The notes under the pieces are model-generated. The model did no database searches. It was given only the letters and a program-made list of their open reading frames with translations, and had not been told where the DNA came from. The translations under genes were made by a program, and so were the position numbers. From a virus, in IMG/VR virus record IMGVR_UViG_3300022074_000217, positions 1-31,663 of that record: a stretch of 31,663 nt of DNA, one strand, 5' to 3'. How positions within the stretch are numbered: the stretch's first letter is position 1; each line of letters opens with the position of its first letter. Positions 6,042-30,308 of the stretch are shown one piece after another.

Positions 6042-6602
6042 ATGGCGAGCAAGATCGACTTAATCAGCAATGCGCTTATTCTGATCGGGGATACTCCGAT
6101 TAATTCACTGACGGGTGGATCACGGCGCGAGACTGTCGCAAACAATCTGTACGACAACATTGTCCAGAACGAGCTAACCAAGCATCGCTGGGGCTTTGCA
6201 CGTCGTAAGGCACAGATATCTAAGCTGACAGACACCCCGATTGATCCTAATGGCTGGACATCTATCTACCAGCTACCCACTGATTTACTATTCCTAATCA
6301 CTGTTTCCCCTGATGCTAGTTATCAGGTGTACGGCGATAAGGTTTACAGCAATTCATCGCAAGCCCTGTACGCTGACTACATTGCAAACGTCACTGAAGA
6401 TGAGTGGCCCGTGTACTTTTCCAAGATGATTGAGTACGCACTGGCTATGGACTTCGCGGCAAGCATTAGAGACAGCTCTGCGGCACGAGGTGAGATGGCG
6501 TCGGCTTATGTGAATGCGTCCCGTATGGCGCGATTCACGGACTCTCAGCAACATCCTACGCAACCGATACGAAGCAACCCATTTACTAATGTGAGGTTCT
6601 AA
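6042..6602 (+). CDS. Tail tubular protein A (T7 gp11-like)
   Basis: A 186 aa protein, close to T7 gp11 (196 aa), the adaptor ring joining portal to nozzle. The opening SKIDLISNALILIGDTPINSL, then ANNLYDNIVQNELTKHRWGFARRKAQISKL and a later GWTSIYQLPTDLL are hallmarks of the family. It starts just after the capsid terminator with AGGTGAG as ribosome-binding site. Its last base is the first base of the next gene (TAATG overlap), so nozzle synthesis is probably coupled. Confidence 0.92.
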   Translation: MASKIDLISNALILIGDTPINSLTGGSRRETVANNLYDNIVQNELTKHRWGFARRKAQISKLTDTPIDPNGWTSIYQLPTDLLFLITVSPDASYQVYGDKVYSNSSQALYADYIANVTEDEWPVYFSKMIEYALAMDFAASIRDSSAARGEMASAYVNASRMARFTDSQQHPTQPIRSNPFTNVRF

Positions 6603-9133
6603 TGGCTAAGACTCGATTCATTCAGTCTAGCTTTGTAAGTGGCGAGTTATCCCCGCTTCTCAAGGGTCGCATTGATATCAACCAGTATTATCAGGCGGTA
6701 GAGACTGCCGATAATGTTGTGATCGTCCCTCAAGGCGGCATGAAGCGTCGTCCCGGTACTGAGTACATTGGGACAGTGGTTGAGAACCTGAGCCGATACA
6801 AGGGCGCTCCCACCATGCCTAACGGCGGTTCAGCGTCGATTATCAACGACGGCAATGATGCGACCACGACCTCGACAACGACTCCAATCGGCACGACTAA
6901 TCCGTACTCTGTTGTTGAGTATGACTTTGGCAGTCCTGTTTGGAGAGACTTCTTTGATCTGCGCCAGATCAGCCTGTCATCCGGCACGAGCGATGAGTTT
7001 AAGATTCAGAAGTCTACCGATGGCATTAACTGGTCAGACGTTGAAGATGTGCCACTGATTGGAACCTCTCCACAAAACATCCGGGTGACGTTGGTACAGC
7101 CCCTTGGAGAGTTTACTGAGGCGCGTTACTGGAGACTTGCGCGTGTTGGCTCATCCAACTTGGGATCTGCAACGGTCACTGCCGCTGATGTCAACGCTAT
7201 GTATCAGAACGGAACCCTTGAAGCACCCAAGCTAATCGACTTCAGTGTTGAAGATGACCGGCATTACTTGATGGAGTTCACGTCAGACAACATCAGGGTC
7301 TATCGCTCTCCCAGTACCTTCGTTGCAGATATCAAGCCAACGTATTCAAGTCTTGACGAGGCTGACGTTCTGAACATCCGAGCGGCTCAGATTGAAAACG
7401 TCATGCTGGTGTTTGGCAACTTCGAGCCAATGCGCATTGTTAATCTGGGTACAGATGCCGATTGGTTTATAGACAACATCCCTTTCATTAACATCCCGCA
7501 GTACGACTTCGACGATGCACAAAGCCCAACGCCTGTTAACGAAGTTCAGATTATGAGTCTTGGCCACTCTGGCGGGCCAAACTGGAAAAACGGCGATAGA
7601 TTTGAGATTGATATCGAGGGTGTAACCTCTAAGTCGATTACCTACGCGGGTGATACTGGCACTGACGAGCAATCCTCGACCGTCTTCAACATCCAAAAGA
7701 ACCTGCAAGAAATGCCTGTTTTTGGCGATACGGGTGTATTGGTAGAAAGAATAGCCGACGATGAATACAGGATTACGATTTCTGGCGAATCAACTAAAGA
7801 TTTCGAGTTGTTTTCTGCGTATGTAACGGAAGGTGACGCAGATCACGAGATTACTTTTACGAAAGTTGCGCCCGCAGGCTCTCCACGCAAAGAGGATGTC
7901 TGGTCGTCTACCCGTGGCTGGCCTAAAAGCGCGTGTTTTTACGAAGGCAGATTGGTACTTGGTGGCACTCAGTCAAAGCCTCAGTCGATCTTCATGTCTA
8001 AGACCGGCGCATTCTTTGACTTCGACATTGATGATGGGGATGACGACGAGGCAATCTTTGCGACTATCTCATCACGCAAGCTCAATGACATCATTGACGT
8101 GTACCCCGGTCGTAACTTGCAGATCTTTACGTCGGGCGCAGAGTTTTCAATTACCAGTAGACCCGTCACCCCGTCTAATATCAGCATCCAACCGCAGACC
8201 TCACACGGCGCAAGCAACATTGAGGTGCAAGATGTTGATGGCTCGACCATATTCATAGACCGTCACGGTAAAGCCCTGCTGGGCTTCCTGTATTCCTTTA
8301 ACGAGGACGCTTACACCACAGACGATAGGTCGGTACTGGCCTCTCATTTAATCAACCAGCCGGTCGATATGGCGCTTCTGGCGGGTACTGCGAGTGATGA
8401 TGCTAACTGGCTGTTTGTTGTGAACAGTGACGGTACGGCTACGATCCTAAATACCCTGAGAAGTCAGGACATTAACGGCTATACCAAGTGGACAACGGAC
8501 GGAAACATCAAGAGCGTTTGTGTTGTAGACGAAGAGCTGTATATATCTGTTGAGCGTGAGGTAAATGGCGCGACACTTATTTACATTGAGCGATGGGACT
8601 TCACTCATAAGCTAGATTGCTCAGTCAAAAAGACAGCCGCCCAGCTTGGTATCGGCGCAGTCACGCACTTATTCAATGAGCAAGTGCAAATTATTGTTGA
8701 TGACAAAGGATATGTATTGCCACCCAGAACTGTTGGGACATCTAATGTGATTAGCTTAGACCCTAATGAGGTATATGCCGGTGATTACGAGGTTGGTTTG
8801 TTATTCACGCCGGTAATTAAGCCCATGCCTTTAAATACCAACATCGGATCAGGCCAGAACCAGATGCGATTGAAGAAAATCGTACGCATGAACGTACGTG
8901 TCTACGAGTCTTCTGGCATAAATATTGACGGCATCCCTGTTGCTATCCGTGCATTTGGCCCTGCTGGGGATGAATCACCATTAAGTCCTGAGTCTATTGT
9001 CCCAGTCAGTGGCATAATAGAGGACGTTTACGATATTAACGGATGGAACAGAGAGGTCATGCCGACGATTACTTGTCCTGATCCTACTCCCATGCACATA
9101 CAGATGATTGAATACGAGGTCGAAGGTAACTGA
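6602..9133 (+). CDS. Tail tubular protein B / nozzle (T7 gp12-like) with discoidin-like insert
   Basis: An 843 aa nozzle protein, close to the 794 aa of T7 gp12, forming the distal tail tube and fibre platform. The N-terminus (FVSGELSPLLKGRIDINQYY, then NVVIVPQGGMKRRPGTEYIG) is diagnostic. After residue 67 there is an insert to about residue 200 with YDFGSP, IQKSTDGINWSDV and ARYWRLARVGSSN, which looks like an F5/8 type C (discoidin) jelly-roll, often carbohydrate-binding. The family core then resumes (RHYLMEFTSDNIRVYRS). The stop overlaps the next start as TGATG. The insert may touch host surface glycans during adsorption, which is inference. Confidence 0.92.
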   Translation: MAKTRFIQSSFVSGELSPLLKGRIDINQYYQAVETADNVVIVPQGGMKRRPGTEYIGTVVENLSRYKGAPTMPNGGSASIINDGNDATTTSTTTPIGTTNPYSVVEYDFGSPVWRDFFDLRQISLSSGTSDEFKIQKSTDGINWSDVEDVPLIGTSPQNIRVTLVQPLGEFTEARYWRLARVGSSNLGSATVTAADVNAMYQNGTLEAPKLIDFSVEDDRHYLMEFTSDNIRVYRSPSTFVADIKPTYSSLDEADVLNIRAAQIENVMLVFGNFEPMRIVNLGTDADWFIDNIPFINIPQYDFDDAQSPTPVNEVQIMSLGHSGGPNWKNGDRFEIDIEGVTSKSITYAGDTGTDEQSSTVFNIQKNLQEMPVFGDTGVLVERIADDEYRITISGESTKDFELFSAYVTEGDADHEITFTKVAPAGSPRKEDVWSSTRGWPKSACFYEGRLVLGGTQSKPQSIFMSKTGAFFDFDIDDGDDDEAIFATISSRKLNDIIDVYPGRNLQIFTSGAEFSITSRPVTPSNISIQPQTSHGASNIEVQDVDGSTIFIDRHGKALLGFLYSFNEDAYTTDDRSVLASHLINQPVDMALLAGTASDDANWLFVVNSDGTATILNTLRSQDINGYTKWTTDGNIKSVCVVDEELYISVEREVNGATLIYIERWDFTHKLDCSVKKTAAQLGIGAVTHLFNEQVQIIVDDKGYVLPPRTVGTSNVISLDPNEVYAGDYEVGLLFTPVIKPMPLNTNIGSGQNQMRLKKIVRMNVRVYESSGINIDGIPVAIRAFGPAGDESPLSPESIVPVSGIIEDVYDINGWNREVMPTITCPDPTPMHIQMIEYEVEGN

Positions 9134-9510
9134 TGAACCTTGCCCTACAGGATGGAATCTTTAAAGCGCAAGACTTGATGCTTCAAATGCCTCAAGTTGA
9201 GTGCGAAGTGTTCCATCATTTTTCTGACGGTCTATATGCGCGGGAATTGCACATACCGGAAGGCGTTGTTTTGGTTGGGGCGTTGCACAAAACGCGGCAT
9301 ATGTTTTTTGTTCAGAAAGGCCAATGCACTGTAATCACACATGAAGGCGAAGAAACAATCACTGCGCCATATATGGGCGAGACAGTTCCGGGTATTAAGC
9401 GAATCATTCGTGCTGATACCGATTGCGTATGGATTGGGTTTCACGTTACCGATAAAACAGAACCTGATGAGATCGGTAAGGACATATTAGAGGATTGGGT
9501 ATGTGGGTAA
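9133..9510 (+). CDS. Cupin-like protein in the tail operon
   Basis: A 125 aa protein with a single double-stranded beta-helix (cupin) pattern: YARELHIPEGVVLVGALHKTRHMFFVQKGQCTV, with histidines at the place of cupin metal ligands, then TAPYMGETVPGIKRII and VWIGFHVT. I recall such proteins between the nozzle and internal virion genes of other podoviruses. No enzymatic function is established; it may be a minor virion or assembly protein. It overlaps the nozzle stop (TGATG) and runs 10 bases into the next gene, so it belongs to the tail operon. Confidence 0.78.
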   Translation: MNLALQDGIFKAQDLMLQMPQVECEVFHHFSDGLYARELHIPEGVVLVGALHKTRHMFFVQKGQCTVITHEGEETITAPYMGETVPGIKRIIRADTDCVWIGFHVTDKTEPDEIGKDILEDWVCG

Positions 9511-9902
9511 TAACAGCGATTGCCGTAGCGGGAGCCGGTGTTTCAGCTTATGGTCAGGTGCAGGCTGGCAAGGCACAAGAGCAACAACTGAAAGAGCAAG
9601 CGAAACAAGAAGAGTTTGCGGCTCAGAGTCAGGAGCTACAGCGTCGGCAGGAATTAAACCGGGCGCTAGCGGCTAATGTGGCGGCTCAATCTGTAGCAGG
9701 AATATCTGGGGAAGGTACGCCAGCAAGTCTGGCATTAGCGAGCGCCGAGCAAGTTGGATTAAGTGAAGCCACCATTGACCTATCAGAACGCCTACGAAGA
9801 TCGGCACTAATACGTCAAGGCAAACAAGCGGCGCAACTTGGTAAAATTCAAGCGGCAAGTACTTTATTAAAAGGTGGCGTTCAAGCCTCTCAACTCAACT
9901 AG
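9501..9902 (+). CDS. Internal virion protein (T7 gp14-like)
   Basis: A 133 aa protein with an N-terminal hydrophobic Gly/Ala segment (VITAIAVAGAGVSAYGQVQAG) followed by a Gln/Ala/Glu-rich helix (QEQQLKEQAKQEEFAAQSQELQRR), then LAANVAAQSVAGISGEGTPASLAL. This is the usual shape of gp14-type proteins, which are ejected and form the outer-membrane part of the trans-envelope channel. I choose ATG 9501, preceded by GAGG at the right spacing, rather than an upstream in-frame TTG. It is the first of three ejection-protein genes in the usual order. Confidence 0.85.
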   Translation: MWVITAIAVAGAGVSAYGQVQAGKAQEQQLKEQAKQEEFAAQSQELQRRQELNRALAANVAAQSVAGISGEGTPASLALASAEQVGLSEATIDLSERLRRSALIRQGKQAAQLGKIQAASTLLKGGVQASQLN

Positions 9903-9922: not shown

Positions 9923-11656
9923 ATGGCTCAGAAGCGCATTGATTACTACGGCAGGTTTACACCGACAGGTGTAGATACGTCTCAGGCTAAACGCTTGCAG
10001 GCGCTCTCTGGCTTGGCTGAACAGGTCGGCGACATTGCGTTTGAGGTTGGGACTAAGATCCAAACGAAGCGCGGTGCGGAAGCTGGTCTGGCGGCTGGAG
10101 CGAAGGCAATAGAGACGGGAGAAGCGCCAGAAGCAAAAGAAGGGTTTTTGTCTCAAATATCTGTATTCGATCAGGCATACAATGACGCTATGCGTGAGTC
10201 GTATATCGCTGGCGTAAACAATGACGCTAGAGAAAACATTGCTCGCATTGCCGCCGAAAATTACCGCGACATTGAAGGCTTTGAAAAGAGCGTCACGAAG
10301 TATCGTCAAGGTCTTATTAATTCGGTGGGTGAAGATTTTTCCGATTCTGTAAGCGTGTCAATGGACTCCCTTATCAGCTCTGCACGGATAGGCGTACAGA
10401 ACGAAGTCGCTACTTTTAATTTACAAAAAGCGAAGGATGAGCTAACGCAGGGCGCGGCAAACGCGCTTGATAATGCAATTAAACTTGGAATGCTTGGCGA
10501 TCAGGTCGGATCTGATGCTCAGTTGCAATCAGCGTACACGTCTATTGACGGCTTAGTGAAAGGTCGATTCTTAACAGAGACAGAAGGCCAGCAAGCAAAA
10601 AGAGAAGCAGTTGCAGGTGCGCTTACAGCTAGAGCCAGATACGGATTGCAGGAAACTATTAAGCGGGTAGAGAAGGCCGCAGAGAAGGCCGCAGAAGATG
10701 GCGATTACTCAGTAGACGGCACGGAAATAATCTCTTATATCGACAGCCTTACAAACACTCCGGTTTCAGACATGACGGCGGAAGATCAGCAAGCAATGAG
10801 TAAAGTATTGCTGTCTGACTGGGATGAGTGGTGGACTACCAAAACCAGATTTGAGGCAGACGAGGCAAAAGCCACAACCAAAATGCAAAACAACAACTTT
10901 AGATCGCTGTCTATTGGAATCGTTTCGGGTACAACCGGGCAAACAGAAATTACACGCGCGGCAAGCGCCAAGCAGATTACCGGCTCCCAGCTTAACAGTC
11001 TGGCGTCCATCCTTTCCAATCGTGGCAGTGGTTTTGATGACCCCTCAACTATCTACACAATTGAAAGACGAATGATTGATGATCCAGAGGCGGCAAGTGA
11101 GTTAATTGCAGAAACGCTTGCAAGTGACGAACCCAAGCTAACTGATAAAACCGCAATGGATTTATACAGGAAAATTGACGCCAACCCGTTGCTAACCACA
11201 CCAGATGCTAAGAAATATCGCAGAGTCTTACAGCGCACAGTGGCTATTGTCGATGACAGTGGTTTCTTTACTGGCACTGCGGCTCAACGAGAAAGAGCTG
11301 TTGTTTTAGAGCTTGCGTTTGATGACGCGATAATTGCCGGAATGAATCCAAAGGTTGCGGCATTTACATTAATAGATATTGGCAATATAAGCGCTGATTA
11401 CGAAAACCCAGAGCAAATACAATCTGCCCTAAACAGTCTGAAGGAAAAAGCGGATTCTGGAACTTATGTTTCTGAGACTCCAGATTATCAGCAAGTGACT
11501 CAGGCAGAGTACGACTTAGAAGTAAAAAATCTTCAAGAGCAATTGGCAGTGTTTCAGTCGTATGAGCGTCTTGAAAATGTGATTAGGTCAGAAGTGCCAA
11601 AGGGTATGACGATGGAAGAGTACCTTGAAGAAGAAGCAAAGAAGCTAGGAAACTAA
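9923..11656 (+). CDS. Internal virion protein (T7 gp15-like)
   Basis: A 577 aa protein, mostly helical by composition and shorter than T7 gp15 (747 aa). It begins QKRIDYYGRFTPTGVDTSQAKRLQALSGLAEQVGD and continues with GAEAGLAAGAKAIETGEAPE and then SQISVFDQAYNDAMRESYIAGV. This opening is characteristic of podovirus internal core proteins that line the ejected channel. It lies between the gp14-like and gp16-like genes with gaps of 20 and 3 bases. No enzymatic motif is visible. Confidence 0.85.
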   Translation: MAQKRIDYYGRFTPTGVDTSQAKRLQALSGLAEQVGDIAFEVGTKIQTKRGAEAGLAAGAKAIETGEAPEAKEGFLSQISVFDQAYNDAMRESYIAGVNNDARENIARIAAENYRDIEGFEKSVTKYRQGLINSVGEDFSDSVSVSMDSLISSARIGVQNEVATFNLQKAKDELTQGAANALDNAIKLGMLGDQVGSDAQLQSAYTSIDGLVKGRFLTETEGQQAKREAVAGALTARARYGLQETIKRVEKAAEKAAEDGDYSVDGTEIISYIDSLTNTPVSDMTAEDQQAMSKVLLSDWDEWWTTKTRFEADEAKATTKMQNNNFRSLSIGIVSGTTGQTEITRAASAKQITGSQLNSLASILSNRGSGFDDPSTIYTIERRMIDDPEAASELIAETLASDEPKLTDKTAMDLYRKIDANPLLTTPDAKKYRRVLQRTVAIVDDSGFFTGTAAQRERAVVLELAFDDAIIAGMNPKVAAFTLIDIGNISADYENPEQIQSALNSLKEKADSGTYVSETPDYQQVTQAEYDLEVKNLQEQLAVFQSYERLENVIRSEVPKGMTMEEYLEEEAKKLGN

Positions 11657-11659
11657 AAA

Positions 11660-14600
11660 ATGGCAGGACGAGCAAGTTTTATAGAATTATCTCGACGCGC
11701 CTTGGCTGGTGATGAGGATGCTTTAATTTCTTTGCGGACTGAAGACGCTGATGTGCCAGATGAAGACTTGTTGCGCCGCGCACAAAATCGTATTAACAGG
11801 CTTGAACAGCAAGAAGCGCGAGTCCCTATTGAAAAGCCTCAGCCATCAATCAAGGCTTATCACGGTACGCCTCATGTATTTCCAGATGCTCAGATTGTTT
11901 TAGATGTGGGGACTGGCATGGAGTATGTCAGGCGGATGGATGACCCAATTATCAAAAACTTAATGGCGAAAGAACCTGATAGGTTTGAAGTTCTTCAGCA
12001 AAATGAGCTTGGGGTTTTTGATCCTAGCAAAATTGGGACTGGCGAAGGCGCTCAAGCATACGGTTATGGCGGCTATCTTGCTGGAAACATAGAAACCGCT
12101 AGAGGTTACAGAAGTTCGCTTCTCGGACAGCATGGAATAGAAGACACGATCACCATAGATGGCAAACCGCTATCCGATTTATATACAGATTTAATGAATC
12201 AAGAAGCAAAAGGCGCATCTGATGCCATAGAAAAAATGCAGATTCTTGAAGATTTAGAATTTGGCGGCGATGTTCTTGCTGTTGAAGAAGCAATAAAAGC
12301 AAAAGACTACTCAGAAGAAACCGTTAAATGGTTCGAGTCAATTAGGCCAACGATTAAGCGCCCCGGTGCTTTATATGAAGTAAACATAAAGGCAGATAAA
12401 TCCGATCTATTAGATTGGGATGCTGAATATGCAGATCAATCCGAAAAAGTTAAGAGTGTTGTTGAAAAATATAGAGATGGCATTGAGCAGTTCTTGGAGG
12501 ATTACACAACTGTTAGTCCAGATTTGGATGCTCTTGACGGCCAGTATATCTATAACACTATGCGAAGAGCTTTAGAGTACGACTATATAGATGTGCCTAA
12601 AGACATTTTAAGCGCGATTGAACAAGGAAGCTCTGATAGAGCTGTTTCAATGTTGTTAGAGCGTGATGGCGTGTCAGGCATTAATTATCTTGATGGCGTT
12701 AGCAGAAGAAAAGGCGAGGGCGTTAATAACTATGTTATTTTCGACCCTAAAGTTTTGGAGATATCCAAGAAGTACGGAGTCAGCATTCCTCTTGCTGGTG
12801 CGTTGGTAGCCAACACAGAACAAGCTCAAGCGCAAAACCTAGACGATATAAACCTCAATGAAATAGCAGAGTTTTGGGAGCCTGAGTTTTTTCAAGACGA
12901 TTTAGACTCGCAAGTATTAGAAGCCAGAGAGCAAGCAAATGCTGATAGTGGCCCATACGCGCAACTAATGGCTGACAAGAGAGCAAGAGAAGCCGCGACA
13001 GAAACCGCCGAAGCCGATCAAATTGCAACTAGAGATTTAGCAAGGCTTGGGCCGGGCGGCACTGCGGTTGCTGGTCTTAGCAAGATTATAGATTTAGACC
13101 CTGTTGGCACGGTAATTGAGCTACCTCGTCAAATTCTAGCTGGCTCGCTTGATGCGCTTACAGAGGCGGCAACAACATTAAATGAAATGTTTCCACTAGG
13201 GCCAGAGGAAGGCTTTCAGTTTGAGATAGAAGCCGAGCCGAGGACTGTTTTGGGTGCGGGCGCTCGCGGTATAAGTCAGTTTATGACGGGCTTCATTCCT
13301 GCGCTTAAAGGCGTTAAGACGCTAAAGATTGCAGAGACAGCAAGAAAGGCGGGGAAAGCGGCGGGAGCGGCTGGGGCAATTACAGAGGGCGCTATTGCTG
13401 GCGCACTGACGGATGCGTTTGCCTTTGACCCAGATGAAGAGCGCCTATCAAACCTAATTAAAGATTTAGGAATTGAAACGCCAGTCACAGATTACCTTGC
13501 GGCCTCACCAGATGACACTCGCGCAGAGGGCAGAGTTAAAAACGCGCTTGAGGGTTTGGCGCTTGGTGGCTTAGCTGACGGATTGATGACAGCATTCCGA
13601 ATGTATAAGGCTCGTAAGCCAATACAAGAGGCGGCCCAAGAGCAAGGCAAGAGTGTTGATGAGCTGGTTAATGAAGCAATGCAAAGCTACAAAGGCGGCG
13701 CTGATTATGTAGAGCCAGCATTACGGATGCCGGAGGGCCAAGATTTTTTGCCATTCGATGAGGCTTTGGATGTTGTCCAGCCGACAATTAGGCTTGATGC
13801 ACCGTCCGGCTCTACACTGGCAGATCCAGAAGACGCGCAAAACATTAACCTTGGTCGCTTAGATACAGCCGATGACGTTAAAGACTTGCTTGATTCAGTG
13901 GCAATTGCTGACGCTGACACAATTAATGAAGCGCGCGGGCAAAAAATAACCAATGCCGAACTGGTTGAATTAGCTGATCAGGTTGGCATGACGCCCGAAA
14001 TGCTACTGAGAAGACGACCGCGTGAGGCGTTTACTGCGGAAGAAGCGCTTGCCGCCCGACAAATTCTTGTCGCCTCTGGAGAAAATATTATAAGGCTTGC
14101 AAAACAGGCCGAGGTAGGTGGAGATCTTGAGTTAGCTTTGTTGCGTAGAGCAATGGCACAGCATCAAGCGATTCAGCACCAAGTTGCTGGAATGACTGCC
14201 GAGGCAGGTCGCGCGTTGCAATCATTTAGGATTCAAGCGCAAAGCACCAAAGAACAGCAAAGGGCTATTGAGGACGCCATTAACGACAGCGGTGGCTTCG
14301 ACATTAACAAACAGCTTGCGAAACGCCTCGGTCAATTGGAAAACTCTAAAGAAGTTGGGCAAGTCCTTAGCCAAATGCACGGCAATAGATGGTGGAACGC
14401 TGGGAGCGAAATGTTCATTAACGGAATATTGTCTGGCGCACCTACGCACATGGCAAACGTGACTTCTAACTTGTTTGTTAATGCACTGACCGTAAGCGAA
14501 AGAAAAGTTGCCTCTATGTTTGGTGATTCAATTCAGCCCGGCGAAGCGGACGCAATGCTTGTTGGCATGGTTCATGGAATGCGAGATGGCTTTAGGCTTG

Positions 14601-16171
14601 GCTGGCAAGCGCTACGAACAGGCGAGCCGTCAGATCAGTTTGTAAAAATTGACACCAATAAATACAAGGCTATCGCTGGCGAAAAGTTCGGTCTTACTGG
14701 GCCGATTGGTCGAGCGGTTGACTACATGGGAATCGCAATTAGAACATCCGGTAGGCTTTTGACTGCTGAGGATGAGTTTTTTAAGGCTGTTGGCTATCGG
14801 ATGGAGCTTCATGCTCAGGCATATCGCACCGCTTTTAATGAGGGCTTAACTGGCGATAAGGCCGCCGCTAGAGTTGCGGAGATAATTAACAACCCCCCAC
14901 AAAACATCAAGATGGCGGCAATTGACGCGGCTAGGTACGGTACGTTTACTAACTCTGTCGAAGGTATGAAGATTCAGCGCGTTCAAGGATTGAGAGAGGC
15001 CGCTGAAAGAGGAAAAGCAAAAATCCCAGAATCCCGCGTTATCTTGCCGTTTATTAGTACGCCATCAAACATCATGTCGTATGGTTTAGAGCGCACCCCG
15101 ATCTCAATGTTTAGCCGTGGAGTCAAAGAAGAGCTAGAGGCTGGCGGAGCTAGAAGAGATTTAGCGTTAGCCAAAATAGCAACGGGTAGCATGATTATGG
15201 CGGTAAGTGCTGACCTTGCTTTAAGTGGTTCGATTACAGGAGGAGGCCCGGCAAATAGGGATATGAAAGCCCTTCTTAGAACAACTGGCTGGCAACCATA
15301 TTCGATAAAAGTAGGTGACAAATATTACGCCTATAACCGACTTGATCCTCTTGGTATGACGATTGGGTTAGCCGCTGACATGACTGAAATTATTGGTCAA
15401 AAAGATGAATACGACGCTCAACAAATTGCCGTCGCCGCGTCTCTTGCGGTTTTTCAAAACCTTTCAAGCAAAACGTATTTGTCTAGTTTTACAGAGTTTT
15501 TGGATGCGTTTATGAGCGCAAGCGATGATCCTGATTCTCAAAACTATAAGCTAGAAAGATGGTTCACCAGAGCGGCTGGCGGATTTATTCCTTTCTCTTC
15601 TGCTTTCAGGTCGGTGGAAAGAGTTATGGACCCGACTGTGCGTATAGGCTTCGATCAAGGAGCAATTAATAATTTCTTGCGAAGAGTGCAAACAGGCATA
15701 CCCGGATACTCAGAAGACCTTCCCCCTCGCAGAAACATATTTGGGGACATTATTGTTTTAGAAGGCGGCATTGGCCCTGATATAATGTCTCCAGTTTACC
15801 AAAGTGAGGTAAAGGACAATCCGGTCGCTGAGGAAATGGTAAGGCAACGGGCGCTTTCGGGAATGCCTCGCGCAAACATTCGCGGAGTTGATTTAGACCC
15901 GTGGCAGTATGACAGGTATGTTCAGTTAACGGCTGGAATTGATGTTGCTGGTAAGCCTACTTTGTATCGAAAGCTAGATGAGTTGATGAGAAGCCCGAGC
16001 TACAAAAGACTGTCTGACGGAAGAGATGGAAATAAGCGAAGGAAGATTTTGTCGATAATTGACAAGTACAGAATGGATGCAAGAGAGGCGTTATTGCGAG
16101 AGGATGTTAGCTTAAAACTAGCAATAGAAAACGCCGAGAAAGAAAAGCAAAAGAAAGCCAGAGGAAACTAG
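11660..16171 (+). CDS. Large internal virion/ejection protein (T7 gp16-like) with N-terminal ADP-ribosyltransferase-like domain
   Basis: A 1503 aa protein, longer than T7 gp16 (1318 aa). In T7 the N-terminus is a lytic transglycosylase. Here residues about 64-373 instead match the ADP-ribosyltransferase-like domain of phage polyvalent proteins: AYHGTPHVF (66-74), IGTGEGAQAYGYGGYLAGN (125-143), LYEVNIKAD (238-246) and GVSGINYLDGVSRRKGEG...NYVIFDPK (337-364). A Gly/Ala-rich hydrophobic stretch follows (AGKAAGAAGAITEGAIAGAL). The long helical remainder contains the segments RAVDYMGIAIRTSGRLLTAEDEFFKAVGYR and INNPPQNIKMAAIDAARYGTF, typical of phage ejection proteins. It is probably delivered into the host at infection, so the domain could modify a host target. 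The activity is inferred and unproven. Confidence 0.85.
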   Translation: MAGRASFIELSRRALAGDEDALISLRTEDADVPDEDLLRRAQNRINRLEQQEARVPIEKPQPSIKAYHGTPHVFPDAQIVLDVGTGMEYVRRMDDPIIKNLMAKEPDRFEVLQQNELGVFDPSKIGTGEGAQAYGYGGYLAGNIETARGYRSSLLGQHGIEDTITIDGKPLSDLYTDLMNQEAKGASDAIEKMQILEDLEFGGDVLAVEEAIKAKDYSEETVKWFESIRPTIKRPGALYEVNIKADKSDLLDWDAEYADQSEKVKSVVEKYRDGIEQFLEDYTTVSPDLDALDGQYIYNTMRRALEYDYIDVPKDILSAIEQGSSDRAVSMLLERDGVSGINYLDGVSRRKGEGVNNYVIFDPKVLEISKKYGVSIPLAGALVANTEQAQAQNLDDINLNEIAEFWEPEFFQDDLDSQVLEAREQANADSGPYAQLMADKRAREAATETAEADQIATRDLARLGPGGTAVAGLSKIIDLDPVGTVIELPRQILAGSLDALTEAATTLNEMFPLGPEEGFQFEIEAEPRTVLGAGARGISQFMTGFIPALKGVKTLKIAETARKAGKAAGAAGAITEGAIAGALTDAFAFDPDEERLSNLIKDLGIETPVTDYLAASPDDTRAEGRVKNALEGLALGGLADGLMTAFRMYKARKPIQEAAQEQGKSVDELVNEAMQSYKGGADYVEPALRMPEGQDFLPFDEALDVVQPTIRLDAPSGSTLADPEDAQNINLGRLDTADDVKDLLDSVAIADADTINEARGQKITNAELVELADQVGMTPEMLLRRRPREAFTAEEALAARQILVASGENIIRLAKQAEVGGDLELALLRRAMAQHQAIQHQVAGMTAEAGRALQSFRIQAQSTKEQQRAIEDAINDSGGFDINKQLAKRLGQLENSKEVGQVLSQMHGNRWWNAGSEMFINGILSGAPTHMANVTSNLFVNALTVSERKVASMFGDSIQPGEADAMLVGMVHGMRDGFRLGWQALRTGEPSDQFVKIDTNKYKAIAGEKFGLTGPIGRAVDYMGIAIRTSGRLLTAEDEFFKAVGYRMELHAQAYRTAFNEGLTGDKAAARVAEIINNPPQNIKMAAIDAARYGTFTNSVEGMKIQRVQGLREAAERGKAKIPESRVILPFISTPSNIMSYGLERTPISMFSRGVKEELEAGGARRDLALAKIATGSMIMAVSADLALSGSITGGGPANRDMKALLRTTGWQPYSIKVGDKYYAYNRLDPLGMTIGLAADMTEIIGQKDEYDAQQIAVAASLAVFQNLSSKTYLSSFTEFLDAFMSASDDPDSQNYKLERWFTRAAGGFIPFSSAFRSVERVMDPTVRIGFDQGAINNFLRRVQTGIPGYSEDLPPRRNIFGDIIVLEGGIGPDIMSPVYQSEVKDNPVAEEMVRQRALSGMPRANIRGVDLDPWQYDRYVQLTAGIDVAGKPTLYRKLDELMRSPSYKRLSDGRDGNKRRKILSIIDKYRMDAREALLREDVSLKLAIENAEKEKQKKARGN

Positions 16172-16174
16172 GCG

Positions 16175-19100
16175 ATGACAGTAGCAGACAACACAAGCCG
16201 TAACCAATATTCCGCGACTTCTGGTCAGACGGTATTCGCGTATACGTTCGAGATCGTAGACAAGGACGATATTGTCGTATTGAAGAACGGCACTACCCTC
16301 TCAGAGGGCACAGATTACGCTGTATCAGGCGTAGGCACTGATAGTGGTGGCAATGTAACCCTTACCGCTGGAGCGTCTGCAAGCGACGTACTGACCCTTT
16401 ACCGGGACATGCCCTATTCTCGCACCCAGAACTACACAAACTCTGGTGACTTCTTAGCCTCTGACGTAAACAGCGACTTCGATAATCTATGGCTGGCAGG
16501 TGAGCAGACTAATCGCTCATTCGAGCAATCTGTTCGCAAGCCTATTACTGACTCGGACTCTATCTCGATGGAGCTACCCGAAGCGGCTGATCGAGCCAAC
16601 AAGGTGCTGGGGTTTGACGAGAATGGTGCGCCATCGACAACACTCGTTACTTCGGATGCTCAGACTATCGCTAGTGTGGCGGCTGACATTGCGACCCTTG
16701 CTGACATTGAAGATGGAACCGTTGCGACTGATGCAATCACTAATGTAAATGCAATCCGAACCGACGTTACTACTGTTTCTGGGGTTTCTTCAGAAGTAAC
16801 AACTGTTGCGGGTAACACATCCAATATCAACACTGTATCTGCTGACCTAAGTGGCGACGATGATATAGGCACTGTCGCTGGTTCTATTGCTAGTGTTAAT
16901 ACAGTTGCGGGTATCTCAAGTGACGTGACAGCGGTGGCTGGTAACAATGCCAACATCACGGCGGTAGCTGATAACGAAGCCAACATCAATGCGGCTAATG
17001 GTCACGCAACTACTGCAAGCACTAAAGCGGCAGAGGCGGCAACGTCAGCGTCTAACGCCGCTACATCAGAATCTAACGCGGCTACTTCTGCCACTAATGC
17101 GGCAACATCAGAGACTAACGCATCCACATCGGAAACTAATGCCGCAACCTCTGAGACTAATGCGGCTACTTCCGCAACTAACGCGGCTACGTCTGAAACC
17201 AATGCGGCCACTTCAGAGACTAATGCGGCGGCTAGTGCAACTGCGGCGGCGGCTTCTGCGGCATCTATCGACCCCAATGATATTGATATCAATGGCGGTA
17301 CGATCGACGGTGTAGCTCTTGGCTCGACCAATACGTACAACGCTATTAATCACACTGGGACTGCGACGTTTAGCACAACCAGTAACGCAACTAACGTCGT
17401 CCTTACTTCCACAGACGGAGACAGTGGAGTTGGCCCGCTTTTAAAGCTGTATAGGAATTCTCCCTCACCAGCAAGTGGCGATATCACGGGTAGCATTCAG
17501 TTTAGAGCAGAAAACAGCGCTGACGAAGACGTTAATTATACTGATATGCAAGCCAAAATCGGCGACCCGACAGATGGCGCAGAGACAGCAGAGTTTAAAC
17601 ACCGCGCTCGTATTAATGGGTCTATGCGAGAAATCTATAGCATAGAAGAGGTAGTTGCCGACTCTGGAAATATTGAGTTTGTAGTCAATCCAAGCAACGT
17701 CGCTGATGTTGATTTTAGAGTCAAGGCTGACTCTGGAGCGGCCTTCTTTGTAGATTCTACGGCTACAGGTTATGTGGGCGTTCGTACATCGGAACCCGAA
17801 ACTGCTCTCGATGTACGTGGCACTATTCAGATTAAGGGCGGAAACCCTTCTCTCGACATAATAGACTCGACGGTTACAGGTAACCTCAGCCAATTTATCG
17901 GCGAAAACGATGGCCTACGGTTAAACCTCAAAGGCTCTGATTCTGTTAATGGAGGCGCATTTCACCTACGCCAGTATAATGGCAGTGACTATCAAACTAG
18001 GTTCCAAATCCAAAACGATGGCGACATCGAGATGCGGGACGATGCCACCCTCATTAAATTCAACTTCGATGCCAGTACCGGCAACGTAAACATAGGTGCA
18101 AGCACTGCTGACGCTGACGCTCAACTGCGTGTCGAGGGAGACGTAAGAGTCGTAGACGCAAACATTCGTGTTGATGAAAGACTGCAAATTGGCTCGCCTA
18201 ACTCTACGCAAGCAATAGATGCGGCACTGCATATCAGGGGCGGTCAACAAGGAGGGTTTGCTACTTTTACCGGCAGTGGCACTGCGGGATCTAATGTCCT
18301 GACCGTAACTGCGGTTTCTTCAGGAACTCTTGAGGTAGGCGATCATGTATTTGGCAGTACCTTGTTGCCAGCTCACATGATTATTACTGAGCAACTAAGT
18401 GGCACAACTGGCGGAGTTGGTACTTACGAGGTAAGCCAAGACTTCCCAGAAGACAAAAGCAGTGGAACATTGTTTGCCGCTAATACATCGCCAACGAGTA
18501 TTCGCATTGAAAATACAGACGGAGGCGTGTCAAATGCCCAGTCAATAGGCACCATTGACTTCTTTGACAGCGACGGCACAACAGACGGCGTTAAGGGCTT
18601 TATTGAAGCAGGGGCTTACGACTCAACGCCAGATACCTATTTAGCTTTTGGTACTAACAAGCAGACAGAAGGCACTCGTGAGACAGCCCGTGAGGTTGGT
18701 AGGTTTGACCACGGCGGCAATCTTCTCGTTGGTAAGGTTAGAAACGTAGACTTTCAAACAGGAATTGCCCTTCAGCGCACCGGTCAAGGCTCTTTCACTG
18801 CGGACGGAGATCACCCTATTGAGGTTCGCAGAAAAACAGACCACGGCGATTTGTTCTTAGGTCGAGCAGATAGCACCATCACAGCCAGAATCATGTCTGT
18901 TGCCTCAACAGATGAAGCGCCTGTATACGCTAACGGTGATGGGCATGGCGTAAAAGTCATGAACTTAGCGCTCCTGCCTTGGGACGGGGTTGACGACTTA
19001 GCCAGAGATGACAAAGTAGATCTCGGCTCTGCTACCGCTAGATATAAGCGCCTGTATTTAGGTAGCGATGCGGAGATCGACGGGAACGTGAACGCCGCCG

Positions 19101-19393
19101 CTTTTAACACCACATCAGACCAGCGTCTCAAAGAAAATATTGCTGATGCAGACGATGCCGGTGCAATTGTAGATGCTATTCAGGTTCGTAAATTCGATTG
19201 GATTGATGAAGGCGAACACCAGCGATACGGCATGGTGGCTCAAGAGTTAAACACCGTTGTACCTGAAGCGGTTACTGTCCCAGAAGACGTAGACGAAATG
19301 ATGAAGGTGGACTACTCAAAGCTAGTGCCTATGCTTGTAAAAGAAATTCAATCACTACGTGCAAGAGTTGCACAACTTGAAGGAGAAGCCTAA
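16175..19393 (+). CDS. Tail fibre protein with T7-type anchor and S74 auto-cleaving chaperone
   Basis: A 1072 aa protein. Residues 1-125 match the T7 tail fibre N-terminal anchor (NQYSATSGQTVFAYTFEIVD, then TLYRDMPYSRTQNYTNSGDF). A shaft of threonine/valine-rich repeats follows, and then a 7-residue repeat tract (17039-17248). The distal part contains a compact insert at about residues 690-775 (TFTGSGTAGSNVLTVTAVSSG and GGVGTYEVSQ), a small module seen in many phage fibres. From residue 981 (SDQRLKEN, FDW, RYGMVAQEL, VDYSKLVPML) it is a peptidase S74 intramolecular chaperone that trimerises the fibre and cuts itself off at the Ser. A terminal leucine heptad (IQSLRARVAQLEGEA) closes it. This is the receptor-binding protein. 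Confidence 0.92.
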   Translation: MTVADNTSRNQYSATSGQTVFAYTFEIVDKDDIVVLKNGTTLSEGTDYAVSGVGTDSGGNVTLTAGASASDVLTLYRDMPYSRTQNYTNSGDFLASDVNSDFDNLWLAGEQTNRSFEQSVRKPITDSDSISMELPEAADRANKVLGFDENGAPSTTLVTSDAQTIASVAADIATLADIEDGTVATDAITNVNAIRTDVTTVSGVSSEVTTVAGNTSNINTVSADLSGDDDIGTVAGSIASVNTVAGISSDVTAVAGNNANITAVADNEANINAANGHATTASTKAAEAATSASNAATSESNAATSATNAATSETNASTSETNAATSETNAATSATNAATSETNAATSETNAAASATAAAASAASIDPNDIDINGGTIDGVALGSTNTYNAINHTGTATFSTTSNATNVVLTSTDGDSGVGPLLKLYRNSPSPASGDITGSIQFRAENSADEDVNYTDMQAKIGDPTDGAETAEFKHRARINGSMREIYSIEEVVADSGNIEFVVNPSNVADVDFRVKADSGAAFFVDSTATGYVGVRTSEPETALDVRGTIQIKGGNPSLDIIDSTVTGNLSQFIGENDGLRLNLKGSDSVNGGAFHLRQYNGSDYQTRFQIQNDGDIEMRDDATLIKFNFDASTGNVNIGASTADADAQLRVEGDVRVVDANIRVDERLQIGSPNSTQAIDAALHIRGGQQGGFATFTGSGTAGSNVLTVTAVSSGTLEVGDHVFGSTLLPAHMIITEQLSGTTGGVGTYEVSQDFPEDKSSGTLFAANTSPTSIRIENTDGGVSNAQSIGTIDFFDSDGTTDGVKGFIEAGAYDSTPDTYLAFGTNKQTEGTRETAREVGRFDHGGNLLVGKVRNVDFQTGIALQRTGQGSFTADGDHPIEVRRKTDHGDLFLGRADSTITARIMSVASTDEAPVYANGDGHGVKVMNLALLPWDGVDDLARDDKVDLGSATARYKRLYLGSDAEIDGNVNAAAFNTTSDQRLKENIADADDAGAIVDAIQVRKFDWIDEGEHQRYGMVAQELNTVVPEAVTVPEDVDEMMKVDYSKLVPMLVKEIQSLRARVAQLEGEA
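17039..17248 (+). repeat. Ten-unit, 21-base tandem repeat in the fibre shaft
   Basis: Ten in-frame units of seven codons encode variants of ATSETNA; the last unit is degenerate (AASATAA). The protein repeat is near perfect, but the DNA copies use differing codons (GCA ACG, GCT ACA, GCC ACT and so on). This would hinder slippage and recombination between units. A seven-residue period with Ala/Asn suggests a coiled-coil or collagen-like spacer that sets fibre length. Confidence 0.9.
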
Positions 19394-20743: not shown

Positions 20744-20941
20744 ATGGATGTGGCACAGGAAGCACTGATTAAACTAGAGGCGCACGAGAAAGAGTGCCTG
20801 ATCAGATACGAGAACATCCAGCGCCAGCTTGATGAACATAACGTCCGCTTCGATAAGCTAGATGCCGCAATGAACCGCCAGCTCATAGTTATTATGACCG
20901 TCATCCCGTTAGTCATCGGCGTCATAGAGTTCATCCGATGA
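20744..20941 (+). CDS. Small tail-anchored membrane protein of the lysis module
   Basis: A 65 aa protein. The N-terminal helix is coiled-coil-like (ALIKLEAHEKECLIRYENIQRQLDEHNVRFDKLD) and is followed by one C-terminal membrane segment (LIVIMTVIPLVIGVIEF). I start at ATG 20744, one base after the upstream stop. Its end overlaps the holin start (ATGA at 20938). The layout recalls XhlA-type accessory lysis proteins (helix plus one TM) that partner holins; that role is inference. Confidence 0.72.
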   Translation: MDVAQEALIKLEAHEKECLIRYENIQRQLDEHNVRFDKLDAAMNRQLIVIMTVIPLVIGVIEFIR

Positions 20942-21333
20942 TTGAACACCTCATAGGCCCTGTTACTGGGCTACTTGATAAGTTTGTAGAAGACAAAGAT
21001 CAGAAGGCTAAGTTAGCCCACGAGATCGCAACCCTAGCTGAGAGGCAAGCACATGAAATTGCAAAATCTCAAATCGAAGTTAACAAAGCTGAAAGCCAAA
21101 GCGGTAGCGTATTTATTGGCGGGTGGCGTCCGGCCACCGGTTGGGTATGTGTTCTCGGTTTTGGCGTCAACTTTCTTGTTATTCCTCTTACTAACTTGTT
21201 TCTTTCTGTAACTGAGAACCCCTTGCTTGTTCCGTCACTGGACGTTAGCGAGATGATGCCTGTCCTGTTAGGGATGCTGGGGCTTGGTTCTATGCGTACC
21301 GTAGAGAAAACTAAGAACGTCGCAAAGCAATGA
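20938..21333 (+). CDS. Holin, three-TM GTA-like family
   Basis: A 131 aa protein. An amphipathic, charged N-terminus (KFVEDKDQKAKLAHEIATLAERQAHEIAKSQIEVNKAES) precedes WRPATGWVCVLGFGVNFLVIPLTNLF and a C-terminal MMPVLLGMLGLGSMRTVEK. The order FIGGWRPATGW followed by hydrophobic segments is the signature of the phage/gene-transfer-agent 3TM holin family. It forms the inner-membrane lesion that lets the endolysin reach the cell wall. It overlaps both neighbours by ATGA and is directly followed by the endolysin, which supports the role. Confidence 0.85.
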   Translation: MIEHLIGPVTGLLDKFVEDKDQKAKLAHEIATLAERQAHEIAKSQIEVNKAESQSGSVFIGGWRPATGWVCVLGFGVNFLVIPLTNLFLSVTENPLLVPSLDVSEMMPVLLGMLGLGSMRTVEKTKNVAKQ

Positions 21334-21683
21334 CCTACAAGTTTTTCAGACTCGAAGAGTTCAACTGTACCCACACGAACCTCAATAAGATGGACCATGA
21401 GTTTCTTCTGAAGCTCGATGAGTTGCGTGAAAAGGTAGGATTCCCGTTTCGCATTACTTCTGGCTACAGGGATGCAACCCACCCCGCTGAAGCACGTAAA
21501 GCTGAACCCGGTACAGGCTATCATTGCCAAGGTCTCGCGGCTGACATCGCTGTCTCTAATGGCTTCGAGCGTATGAACATTGTGCATGAGGCAATCAAGA
21601 TGGGATTCTCTATCGGTGTTGCCAGAACCTTTGTACACGTTGACGATCGAAAGACCACTCCGGTCATGTGGACTTATTCATAA
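21330..21683 (+). CDS. Endolysin: peptidase M15-type DD-/LD-peptidase
   Basis: A 117 aa single-domain zinc peptidase of the M15A type. Visible motifs are ITSGYRD (residues 42-48), the zinc motif HCQGLAAD (H65, D72) and FVHVD (third zinc ligand H103). It would cut peptide cross-links of peptidoglycan. There is no signal peptide and no cell-wall-binding domain, consistent with release through a holin in a Gram-negative host. The start overlaps the holin stop (ATGA). It is the last gene of the late block; no terminator is seen before the next promoter. Confidence 0.9.
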   Translation: MTYKFFRLEEFNCTHTNLNKMDHEFLLKLDELREKVGFPFRITSGYRDATHPAEARKAEPGTGYHCQGLAADIAVSNGFERMNIVHEAIKMGFSIGVARTFVHVDDRKTTPVMWTYS

Positions 21684-28663: not shown

Positions 28664-28876
28664 ATGTACGAACAAGAAATGTTTAACAGGAATCCGGGCT
28701 TAGTAATTGGCGCGGTTATCTTATTTATCACTGTGTTGGGCATCGTAGGTAATGCCGACATGGAAGAAGAGATTAGCCAATACGAGTTTTATTGTGAGAA
28801 CGTCGCCATGTGGATTGATTCCAATGGTGAGAACGGGCATCCAAACTTTCGAGGTGTAGATTGTGAAAGTTCTTGA
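28664..28876 (+). CDS. Small single-TM membrane protein
   Basis: A 70 aa protein with one membrane segment (LVIGAVILFITVLGIVGNA) and a C-terminal outer part EEEISQYEFYCENVAMW...GHPNFRGVDCESS. The Y-C-E-x-V-A-x-W...G-x-P-x-[YF]-R-G pattern is common to a widespread tiny phage membrane protein of unknown role. It has an AGGGATGGG ribosome-binding site and overlaps the methyltransferase start by 14 bases. Confidence 0.75.
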   Translation: MYEQEMFNRNPGLVIGAVILFITVLGIVGNADMEEEISQYEFYCENVAMWIDSNGENGHPNFRGVDCESS

Positions 28877-29717
28877 TCTATTCGCTGGGATCGGTGGCTT
28901 TACCATCGGTCTTGAGCGAGCAGGATTCGAGACAGCGGCTTTCTGTGAGATAGATCCTTATGCTCAGAAAGTCTTGCGCAAGAATTGGCCCGGAGTACCG
29001 ATCTATGACGATGTACGAACAATCACAGCAGAGCGACTGGCTTCAGACGGAATTGGAGTCGATGTCATTACCGGAGGTTTCCCCTGCCAAGACATTTCAG
29101 TCTCAGGAAACCAAGCAGGAATACGAGACGGAACACGGAGTGGCTTATGGTCAGAGTGCGCCCGTCTTATTGGGGAGCTTCAGCCCCGATACGCCATCTT
29201 TGAAAACGTCACAAACTTGCTTAATGGAGAACGGGGAGCTTGGTTTAAGCGAGTACTTTGGGACATTTCCGCGCTCGGGTATGATGCGGAGTGGCACTGT
29301 ATACCAGCTTCCGAACTTGGCGCGCACCATCACAGAGATCGGATCTGGATTATTGCCTACCCCAGTGGCGTCGGACATGGGCAGTGCATCGCAGAAACGA
29401 ATCAATCAAACGGGGCATCCGAAGGCGGCGTTAAGGGAAGCGATATTCTGGCCTACGCCGAACGCAAGCCAAGGCGGGACAACGGGAAACTGGAAGCCGG
29501 TGAGAGACAGTGGTCACACAGTACAACTGAGTCTCGCCCAATCTGTCAGAAACTTACGAATACAGCAGGGCAAGCCTTTTGGTGGACTGAACCCGACGTG
29601 GGTCGAGTGGCTAATGGGATTCCCTCTAGGTCACACAGACTTAAATGCTTAGGCAATGCAGTAGTGCCGCCAATACCAGAGCTGATAGGAAGGGCGATAA
29701 ATGAAGCTAACGTATAA
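28863..29717 (+). CDS. dcm: DNA cytosine-5 methyltransferase
   Basis: A 284 aa enzyme that moves a methyl group from S-adenosylmethionine to cytosine C5. The motifs in order are I (LDLFAGIGGF, residues 4-13), IV (GGFPCQDIS, catalytic C75), VI (ENV, 114-116), VIII (HHRDRIWI, 156-163), a short target-recognition region (about 170-245) and X (GNAVVPP, 264-270). There is no partner endonuclease nearby, so it is probably an orphan enzyme that shields phage DNA from host restriction. Nearly all of its length after residue 33 is covered in another frame by a second family-like reading frame (28960-29652), which must constrain both. It overlaps the genes on both sides. Confidence 0.93.
   Translation: MKVLDLFAGIGGFTIGLERAGFETAAFCEIDPYAQKVLRKNWPGVPIYDDVRTITAERLASDGIGVDVITGGFPCQDISVSGNQAGIRDGTRSGLWSECARLIGELQPRYAIFENVTNLLNGERGAWFKRVLWDISALGYDAEWHCIPASELGAHHHRDRIWIIAYPSGVGHGQCIAETNQSNGASEGGVKGSDILAYAERKPRRDNGKLEAGERQWSHSTTESRPICQKLTNTAGQAFWWTEPDVGRVANGIPSRSHRLKCLGNAVVPPIPELIGRAINEANV
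28960..29652 (+). CDS. Overprinted methyltransferase-associated phage protein, nested in the dcm gene
   Basis: A 230-codon frame, +1 relative to dcm and wholly inside it. It is not random: SPAKTFQSQ (41-49), LKTSQTCL (81-88), FPRSGMMRSGTVYQLPNLA (103-121), GLLPTPVASD (130-139), FWPTPNASQGG (163-173) and LNPTWVEWLMGFP (210-222) are the ordered motifs of a phage protein family I know from annotations beside or within cytosine methyltransferase genes, of unknown biochemical role. Both frames thus keep family motifs over the same 690 bases. The start is unsure: ATG 28960, 29011 or 29062, the last just before the conserved SPAKT motif. Expression is not proven by sequence. Confidence 0.7.
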   Translation: MLRKSCARIGPEYRSMTMYEQSQQSDWLQTELESMSLPEVSPAKTFQSQETKQEYETEHGVAYGQSAPVLLGSFSPDTPSLKTSQTCLMENGELGLSEYFGTFPRSGMMRSGTVYQLPNLARTITEIGSGLLPTPVASDMGSASQKRINQTGHPKAALREAIFWPTPNASQGGTTGNWKPVRDSGHTVQLSLAQSVRNLRIQQGKPFGGLNPTWVEWLMGFPLGHTDLNA

Positions 29718-30043: not shown

Positions 30044-30308
30044 TAGACAGATGCGACAAGAGGGGTTGAGAGACTTCCTTGCCCAGCAGAAGCTAATTGA
30101 GCAAGTCATTGAAATTTCTAATAAATTGATTGAGCCAGAGGAAGAATATGACGCTCTGGACATTCAACGTATGCGTACAGCGGCAGAGCTGAATCTAAAG
30201 CTGACATCAAAGTTCCTGCCAGACCTCAAATCGACCGAGCTAACCGGCCCAGAAGGTGGTGATTTAGTCATTCAGGTTCAACGTAAGCGCTTCGATGGCG
30301 AAGATTGA
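30018..30308 (+). CDS. terS: Terminase small subunit
   Basis: A 96 aa protein that recognises phage DNA and hands it to the large subunit. LNRQMRQEGLRDFLAQQKLIEQVIEISNKLI, then YDALDIQRMRTAAELNLKLTSKFLPDLKSTELTGPEGGDLVI is the pattern of podovirus small terminases (helical oligomerisation core, then K-x-x-E-L-T-G-x-x-G-G). I start at GTG 30018, with AGGAT about seven bases before it; a longer frame from 29937 lies mainly in the upstream gene, so the N-terminus is uncertain. Its stop overlaps the large terminase start by 14 bases. Confidence 0.82.
   Translation: MAKTKAQLNRQMRQEGLRDFLAQQKLIEQVIEISNKLIEPEEEYDALDIQRMRTAAELNLKLTSKFLPDLKSTELTGPEGGDLVIQVQRKRFDGED

Follow-up and report, generated by a model that had tools for sequence, protein, structure and literature searches.

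ADP-ribosyltransferases (ARTs) are the commonest protein-modifying domains of injected polyvalent proteins (PMC5512222), and injected ARTs have been predicted for phages, in most cases as fusions with MuF or portal domains or with giant virion RNA polymerases (PMC5512222, PMC9503650). Members of the ART-PolyVal (PF18760)/Tox-ART-HYD2 group have an H-Y-D layout, with His on strand 1, Tyr on strand 2 and Asp by strand 5, and are fused within large proteins in a phage virion-gene context; polyvalent proteins also often use a metallopeptidase for processing (PMC5512222). T4 Alt embodies the idea of an injected ART, and is a separate head protein with an R-S-E active site and a known target, RNA polymerase (PMC5512222). 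AcrIF11 is a small, separate phage ART, and it inactivates a CRISPR complex (PMC12421852). For the proteins that accompany phage DNA into the host, a point of comparison is gp16 of T7, an internal virion protein with an N-terminal transglycosylase; its N-terminus is periplasmic and its C-terminus cytoplasmic (PMC8954989).

Here, we describe P0001, a gp16-position protein from a marine phage in which an ART-like domain of the H-Y-D type is joined to an ejection core. Both injected ARTs and polyvalent proteins are already known; what appears to be new is an exchangeable slot on the gp16-like core of compact marine phages, and in the open-licence literature we found no description of an ART or an exchangeable slot on a gp16-like protein.

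Genome and virion genes

The window, by which we mean the whole stretch of DNA analysed, is an entire IMG/VR virus record of 31,663 bases. Its ends (1-1400 and 30264-31663) are copies of each other with 50 mismatches over 1400 bases, and because of this terminal overlap the record probably represents a complete genome of about 30.3 kb, with little missing. The end copies look like one circularly permuted genome assembled across two strains.

The genes follow a short-tailed phage order, comprising terminase, a portal-like head-tail adaptor, capsid (PF19821, E 7.5e-62), tail proteins, the gp14-like and gp15-position proteins, P0001 and the tail fibre (Table 1). P0001 therefore occupies the third position of a gp14-gp15-gp16-fibre series, and resembles T7 gp16 both in gene order and in its role of internal virion protein. 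The sequence-only reading that had drawn attention to this locus noted the lack of a phage RNA polymerase, and as far as the list of open reading frames goes this is borne out, all unassigned frames encoding at most about 250 residues. Rfam and tRNA scans of the window found none. Outside the virion genes, a likely lysis pair lies at 20938-21683, consisting of a holin-like gene (GTA_holin_3TM, E 1.6e-18) and, next to it, a gene for an M15 peptidase (E 1.6e-8), and a C5 cytosine DNA methylase at 28863-29717 (PF00145, E 2.9e-50) possibly serves self-protection.

Table 1. Features of the virion gene region and of P0001 (window coordinates).
Feature	Coordinates	Strand	Basis
Tail tubular protein B	6602..9133	+	phrog_376, E 9e-111
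gp14-like internal virion protein	9495..9902	+	phrog_418, E 4.7e-5
gp15-position protein, 577 aa	9923..11656	+	Gene position alone; nothing of note in PHROG or Pfam
gp16-position ejection protein P0001, 1503 aa	11660..16171	+	Open reading frame, translation; phrog_6651
Three-helix leader, residues 1-56	11660..11827	+	AlphaFold2 helices 7-15, 19-28, 34-52
ART-like domain, residues 57-392	11828..12835	+	Hold-out HMM, model, ART structure matches
H68, putative catalytic His of H-Y-D	11861..11863	+	57/58 in ART alignment; strand 64-70
Residues about 73-118, inserted between the His and GTGEG motifs	11876..12013	+	Alignment
Y139, putative second triad residue	12074..12076	+	58/58 in ART alignment; strand 138-141
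D362, putative third triad residue	12743..12745	+	52/58 in ART alignment; just after strand 356-360
Linker YGVSIPLAGALVANTEQAQA at the junction, residues 372-391, with a short hydrophobic run before AQA	12773..12832	+	Pattern count
gp16-like ejection core, residues 393-1503	12836..16168	+	Identity to marine relatives; phrog_6651
Tail fibre with S74 chaperone	16175..19393	+	PHROG tail fibre; PF13884, E 7.3e-12

The ART-like domain and its putative active site

A profile HMM built from 57 relatives, with the window left out, recognised residues 57-392 of P0001 at 187.8 bits (E 1.9e-53, with the database size set to 1e6), and none of 200 shuffled copies of P0001 was reported by it at E <= 100. 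One limit of this test is that, although the relatives were fetched with gp5 of Sulfitobacter phage phiGT1, they were trimmed according to BLAST matches with both gp5 and P0001. The ART alignment referred to below comprises 58 distinct domains of at least 70 bits and 170-480 residues in length, drawn from the loci found with gp5 and from L001-L004, window included. An ART-like domain had earlier been placed at residues 64-373, corresponding exactly to 11849-12778; the domain is real, and its edges lie nearer 57-392. It contains the motifs AYHGTPH (66-72), IGTGEGAQAYGYGGYL (125-140) and GINYLDGVSRRKGEGVNNYVIFDPK (340-364), the usual GHGLYFA reading GYGGYLA in P0001. The short leader that precedes the domain is resembled in L086, L117, L120, L128, L139 and L141 (70-93% identity).

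By single-sequence search the domain is remote. At E <= 10, tblastn of the domain matched only 3 of 50,697 phage records, with phiGT1 gp5 (QLB38217.1) the best at E 4e-13, and a scan of viral contigs with P0001 alone gave 13 stretches, none of them confirmed. PDB sequence searches with P0001 and with the ART profile A3 gave no match of note, and the same search with phiGT1 gp5 returned one ADP-ribosylating toxin (9qe9, E 0.023). Pfam found no ART in P0001 or in its isolated domain, the cut-off of PF18760 not being reached; this family scores phiGT1 gp5 at 30.0 bits (E 1e-6), and L155 and L207 at 29.0 and 30.4, all just under its cut-off of 31.2 bits. An hhalign comparison of profile A3 with the PF18760-positive part of L224 gave a probability of 12.2%.

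The domain's closest relative, at 36% identity, is a protein of 374 residues in L069. The insertion that follows the His motif is common to these two and, in the alignment, absent from phiGT1 gp5. The latter, the closest annotated phage relative, has the same motifs and is encoded in a head gene cluster, but is a separate protein of 387 residues without an ejection core, annotated as hypothetical. P0001 shares with ART-PolyVal the H-Y-D layout, the virion-gene context and the fusion within a large protein, and differs from it in being unrecognised by PF18760, in its long insertion and in its fusion to an ejection core.

The putative triad H68-Y139-D362 is intact in the window copy. In the predicted structure, His and Tyr lie in strands 1 and 2 and Asp at strand 5, and the role given to D362 is taken from the published H-Y-D description (PMC5512222). 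The conserved residues of P0001 and its relatives are H, Y and D, and not the R-S-E set; N357 is kept as well, in 56 of the 58 domains, window included. Assignment of the domain as ART-like, with the H-Y pair and of the type known from phage polyvalent proteins, holds up, and so does its fusion to a gp16-position ejection protein. Retention of the H-Y pair in close relatives, on which the sequence-only reading had made its proposal depend, is complete for Tyr (16/16 of the gp16-position ARTs having the column), as it is for Asp (14/14), but not for His (15/17): Thr takes the place of the putative catalytic His in two gp16-position ARTs, L103 (10565-14758) and L139 (4818-5714). Ala replaces the Gly that follows the His in L086, L120 and L128.

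The ART domain is under purifying selection in these relatives. Among pairs at least 80% identical, pairwise dN/dS is 0.05-0.23 (values were reported for pairs above 55% identity, and some dS were undefined); it is about 0.05-0.13 among the domains of L103, L139, L086, L120 and L128, and 0.11 over 227 codons for the Thr pair L103/L139. Constraint on the fold therefore persists even where the His is gone, and a non-catalytic role is conceivable in the Thr branch.

An AlphaFold2 model of residues 1-413 has a mean pLDDT of 83.2 and a pTM of 0.73, with pLDDT mostly 80-98 across residues 61-370. As modelled, its top four matches among 179 aligned chains are ARTs or ART-like: the cyanophage A4 pre-ejectosome (PDB 9k3a chain B, ranking first among solved structures with Z 9.4 across 171 residues), MbcT (Z 5.9), tankyrase-2 (Z 5.6) and AcrIF11 (6kyf, Z 5.0), although values of 5.0-5.9 fall in the range in which the tool may be reporting only a common arrangement. 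The proposed comparison with ART folds accordingly found a modest resemblance to solved ARTs by alignment, whereas Foldseek alone gave no PDB match to the model at E <= 0.001. In BFVD, 24 models matched at E <= 0.001, and four of these are named ART-PolyVal or PolyVal ADP-ribosyltransferase (E 2.3e-10 to 1.3e-5). By structural match, the P0001 domain may be counted as ART-PolyVal-like kin in the wider sense.

The pre-ejectosome match concerns cyanophage A4 (Anabaena phage A-4L), and from its size and numbering we infer that chain B is ORF27 (L227, 20116-25269), in which LYHGT...GSGTYFS can be read by eye; neither the ART HMM nor Pfam matched ORF27. An ART-like fold seems to be present in this pre-ejectosome, with the difference that the ART-like region comes late in the protein and not, as in P0001, near its start. 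ORF28, beside ORF27, contains an M23 peptidase.

An ejection core with an exchangeable N-terminal slot

The carrier of the domain is, by sequence similarity, homologous to internal virion proteins. The family phrog_6651, 'internal virion protein', matches residues 1030-1501 of P0001 (E 2.8e-40), and residues 751-1503 are 46-57% identical to marine relatives. Of 50,697 phage records, 87 have a match to residues 414-1503, mainly those of phages of Pelagibacter, Synechococcus, Prochlorococcus and Roseobacter; among the 60 of these matches listed, many are annotated as internal virion protein or internal virion protein D. Scanning with the tail tubular protein as query yielded 80 marine loci, and with the core 61. 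Of ten gp16 relatives from bacterial genomes (L228-L237), eight have alphaproteobacterial titles, a hint at the host of the window phage; the ART HMM found nothing in these ten. Among plasmids, tblastn of P0001 matched 1 of 72,556 records: NZ_CP132331.1 (Bordetella bronchiseptica), recorded as a plasmid and possibly a phage genome, has a gp16-core relative of 36% identity at 16303-19103. As to kinship with T7 gp16 itself, the core profile A2 searched against PDB sequences matched only designed repeat proteins and no ejection protein, and there was no ejection protein among the fold matches of a low-confidence core model (pLDDT 63.3). A relative of the window phage, L088, has a gp16-position protein of another type (10224-14855) with LPD38 (E 8.3e-37); hhalign of the core against this protein gave 1.3%, so that LPD38 could not be linked to the window-type core.

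The domain had been thought to replace the T7-type transglycosylase, a reading that we set aside as unsupported. Pfam found no transglycosylase in P0001, nor in any of 35 gp16-position proteins or N-terminal parts of relatives, although a diverged one could escape such a scan. The 35 scans cover 34 loci, being made up of seven proteins from six loci (both large frames of L110 included), the vir555 protein described below, and sets of seven, ten and ten. Moreover, 8 of 44 related cores are bare, having no extra N-terminal module.

These 44 form a census of gp16s with an intact 5' end, a core match over at least 600 residues and a distinct core. This ART is present in 12 of them; L207 has an ART together with a second module, and L224 a PF18760 domain (E 3.2e-15). 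Modules of unknown kind are carried by ten (eleven with L197, which shows the signature of the V-module in the junction comparison), ParB-C-like modules by two (phrog_2579, E about 1e-34) and a GNAT-like module by one (Pfam E 0.016; phrog_1249 E 0.0018). Polyvalent proteins combine several disparate domains in one injected polypeptide; P0001 has an ART and its core, and some relatives have more: L225 (1579-8328) has RelA_SpoT, ddrB-ParB and RadC domains ahead of the gp16 core. Apart from these and the eight bare cores, the remainder are unclassified. A second common slot module, at the N-termini of L091, L093, L156, L166 and L169, has no Pfam match above cut-off, and those of L093 and L156 have no PHROG match.

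Modules are exchanged between phages. L210 (4606-8235) and L211 (114-3908) are a clean cassette swap: their core DNA is 96-100% identical in all 29 printed blocks of 25 codons, and the first five blocks are only 39-67% identical, with a GNAT-like module in one and a ParB-C-like module in the other. On a quick core tree the ART label (12 rows) needs 3 changes and all labels together 16, and L169, with its other module, falls within the ART clade of cores. This exchange, and the near-identical cores with different modules, make the ART look like optional, exchangeable cargo and not a transglycosylase substitute.

The junction between cargo and core has a recurrent linker, which looks like the end of a signal peptide or a processing linker. 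A hydrophobic run followed by A-x-A occurs there in 12/13 ART-bearing gp16s versus 20/339 control windows from the same related proteins; this count is post hoc, the pattern (run of 8) and the window having been changed after a first count, with a run of 9 and a window too far downstream, had given 1/14 versus 38/710. The pattern is found also at the junction of L091, L093, L166, L169, L170, L197, L202, L203 and L204, while in L156, L190, L192 and L193 it stands close to the N-terminus. It was missed in L173, L212, L215, L210 and L211, the last two of which have a similar stretch by eye. Polyvalent proteins often use a metallopeptidase, and P0001 is without one, as judged by Pfam.

An ART in gp16-like position is found elsewhere too. 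In Caudoviricetes sp. vir555, gene 00054 (DBA35080.1) encodes an ART domain, with a weak PF18760 match (E 0.0072), after a phrog_418 gp14-like gene and a gp15-position gene. The protein differs in its size (1974 residues) and in its predicted host, Methanomicrobiales, and since it has no match to the window-type core it represents an independent ART fusion.

Possible roles of the ART-like domain

It is slightly more probable than not, in our judgement, that P0001 brings a virion-borne H-Y-D ART into the host as ejection-protein cargo, and that a host protein, most likely one with a part in defence, is modified early by this ART. P0001 would be packed in the virion and ejected together with the gp14- and gp15-like proteins, its C-terminal ~1100 residues acting as the gp16-like core that enters the host envelope ahead of the DNA and its N-terminal ~390 residues being the cargo, an ART of the polyvalent-protein type. 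The ART would thus reach the host before phage genes are transcribed, would perhaps be cut free at the hydrophobic-AQA linker, and would use host NAD+ to ADP-ribosylate a host protein within the first minutes, the most likely target being part of a system that sees incoming DNA. AcrIF11 offers a precedent for counter-defence by ADP-ribosylation (PMC12421852). Close relatives differ in whether they have the module, and this makes a variable opponent, for instance a defence system, a better candidate than RNA polymerase.

Delivery is the weak step in this scheme. NAD+ resides in the cytoplasm. Since the N-terminus of T7 gp16 is periplasmic (PMC8954989), access of the P0001 ART to NAD+ is not given, and either the topology of P0001 differs from that of T7, or its cargo is cleaved off and transferred, or the domain is non-enzymatic. 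The last of these, an ART-fold module that binds a host or virion partner or aids ejectosome assembly without transferring ADP-ribose, is a possibility to which we give clearly less weight. The T7 topology speaks for it, as do the relatives with Thr for His or Ala for Gly whose domains are still constrained; against it, H, Y and D are all present in the window copy and in most gp16-position relatives, and a part in assembly sits poorly with the absence or replacement of the module in many of them, assembly being independent of it. An extension of the cargo reading addresses the same step: the gp16-like ejectosome protein of this marine phage group would be a general delivery chassis whose N-terminal slot takes exchangeable effectors (ART, GNAT-like, ParB-C-like or other modules) or stays empty, the cargo lying on the cytoplasmic side and being released by cutting at the signal-peptide-like linker, perhaps by host signal peptidase. 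We hold this to be rather doubtful.

Two further readings concern what the enzyme would act on. With no unassigned frame big enough for a phage RNA polymerase, the phage must use that of the host, and T4 Alt is the very model that has been proposed for polyvalent ARTs (PMC5512222), so that ADP-ribosylation of host RNA polymerase in favour of phage promoters deserves consideration. It is nevertheless unlikely: Alt has an R-S-E and the polyvalent-protein ARTs an H-Y-D active site (PMC5512222), related phages that probably also depend on host polymerase have bare cores, replacement of the slot by unrelated modules suits counter-defence better than a core need, and none of the evidence points to RNA polymerase as the target. 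Less probable still is an NADase or other NAD+-directed activity, by which the domain would hydrolyse or alter NAD+ and so blunt NAD+-based immune signalling. The fold match to MbcT, an NAD+-consuming toxin of the ART group, is in keeping with such an activity. Free ADP-ribose is also a possible product of ARTs, and NAD+ systems of phages take part in conflicts of this sort (PMC9503650). Early depletion of NAD+ would, however, harm the phage, and no partner gene for NAD+ chemistry was noticed among the window frames scanned.

On the preferred reading, of an ART as ejection-protein cargo directed at defence, the setting is what sets this locus apart: a compact marine phage of 30 kb bears the ART on its DNA-ejection protein, and the content of the slot is swapped between near relatives while the core stays unchanged. 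A testable question is raised by this arrangement, namely whether the N-terminus of a gp16-like protein can reach the host cytoplasm. If the delivery chassis is real, the topology would be inverted relative to T7, and these phages would have a modular counter-defence arsenal that acts before phage gene expression. With such swapping of the slot's content, ejection proteins are a place to seek early counter-defence effectors in uncultured phages.
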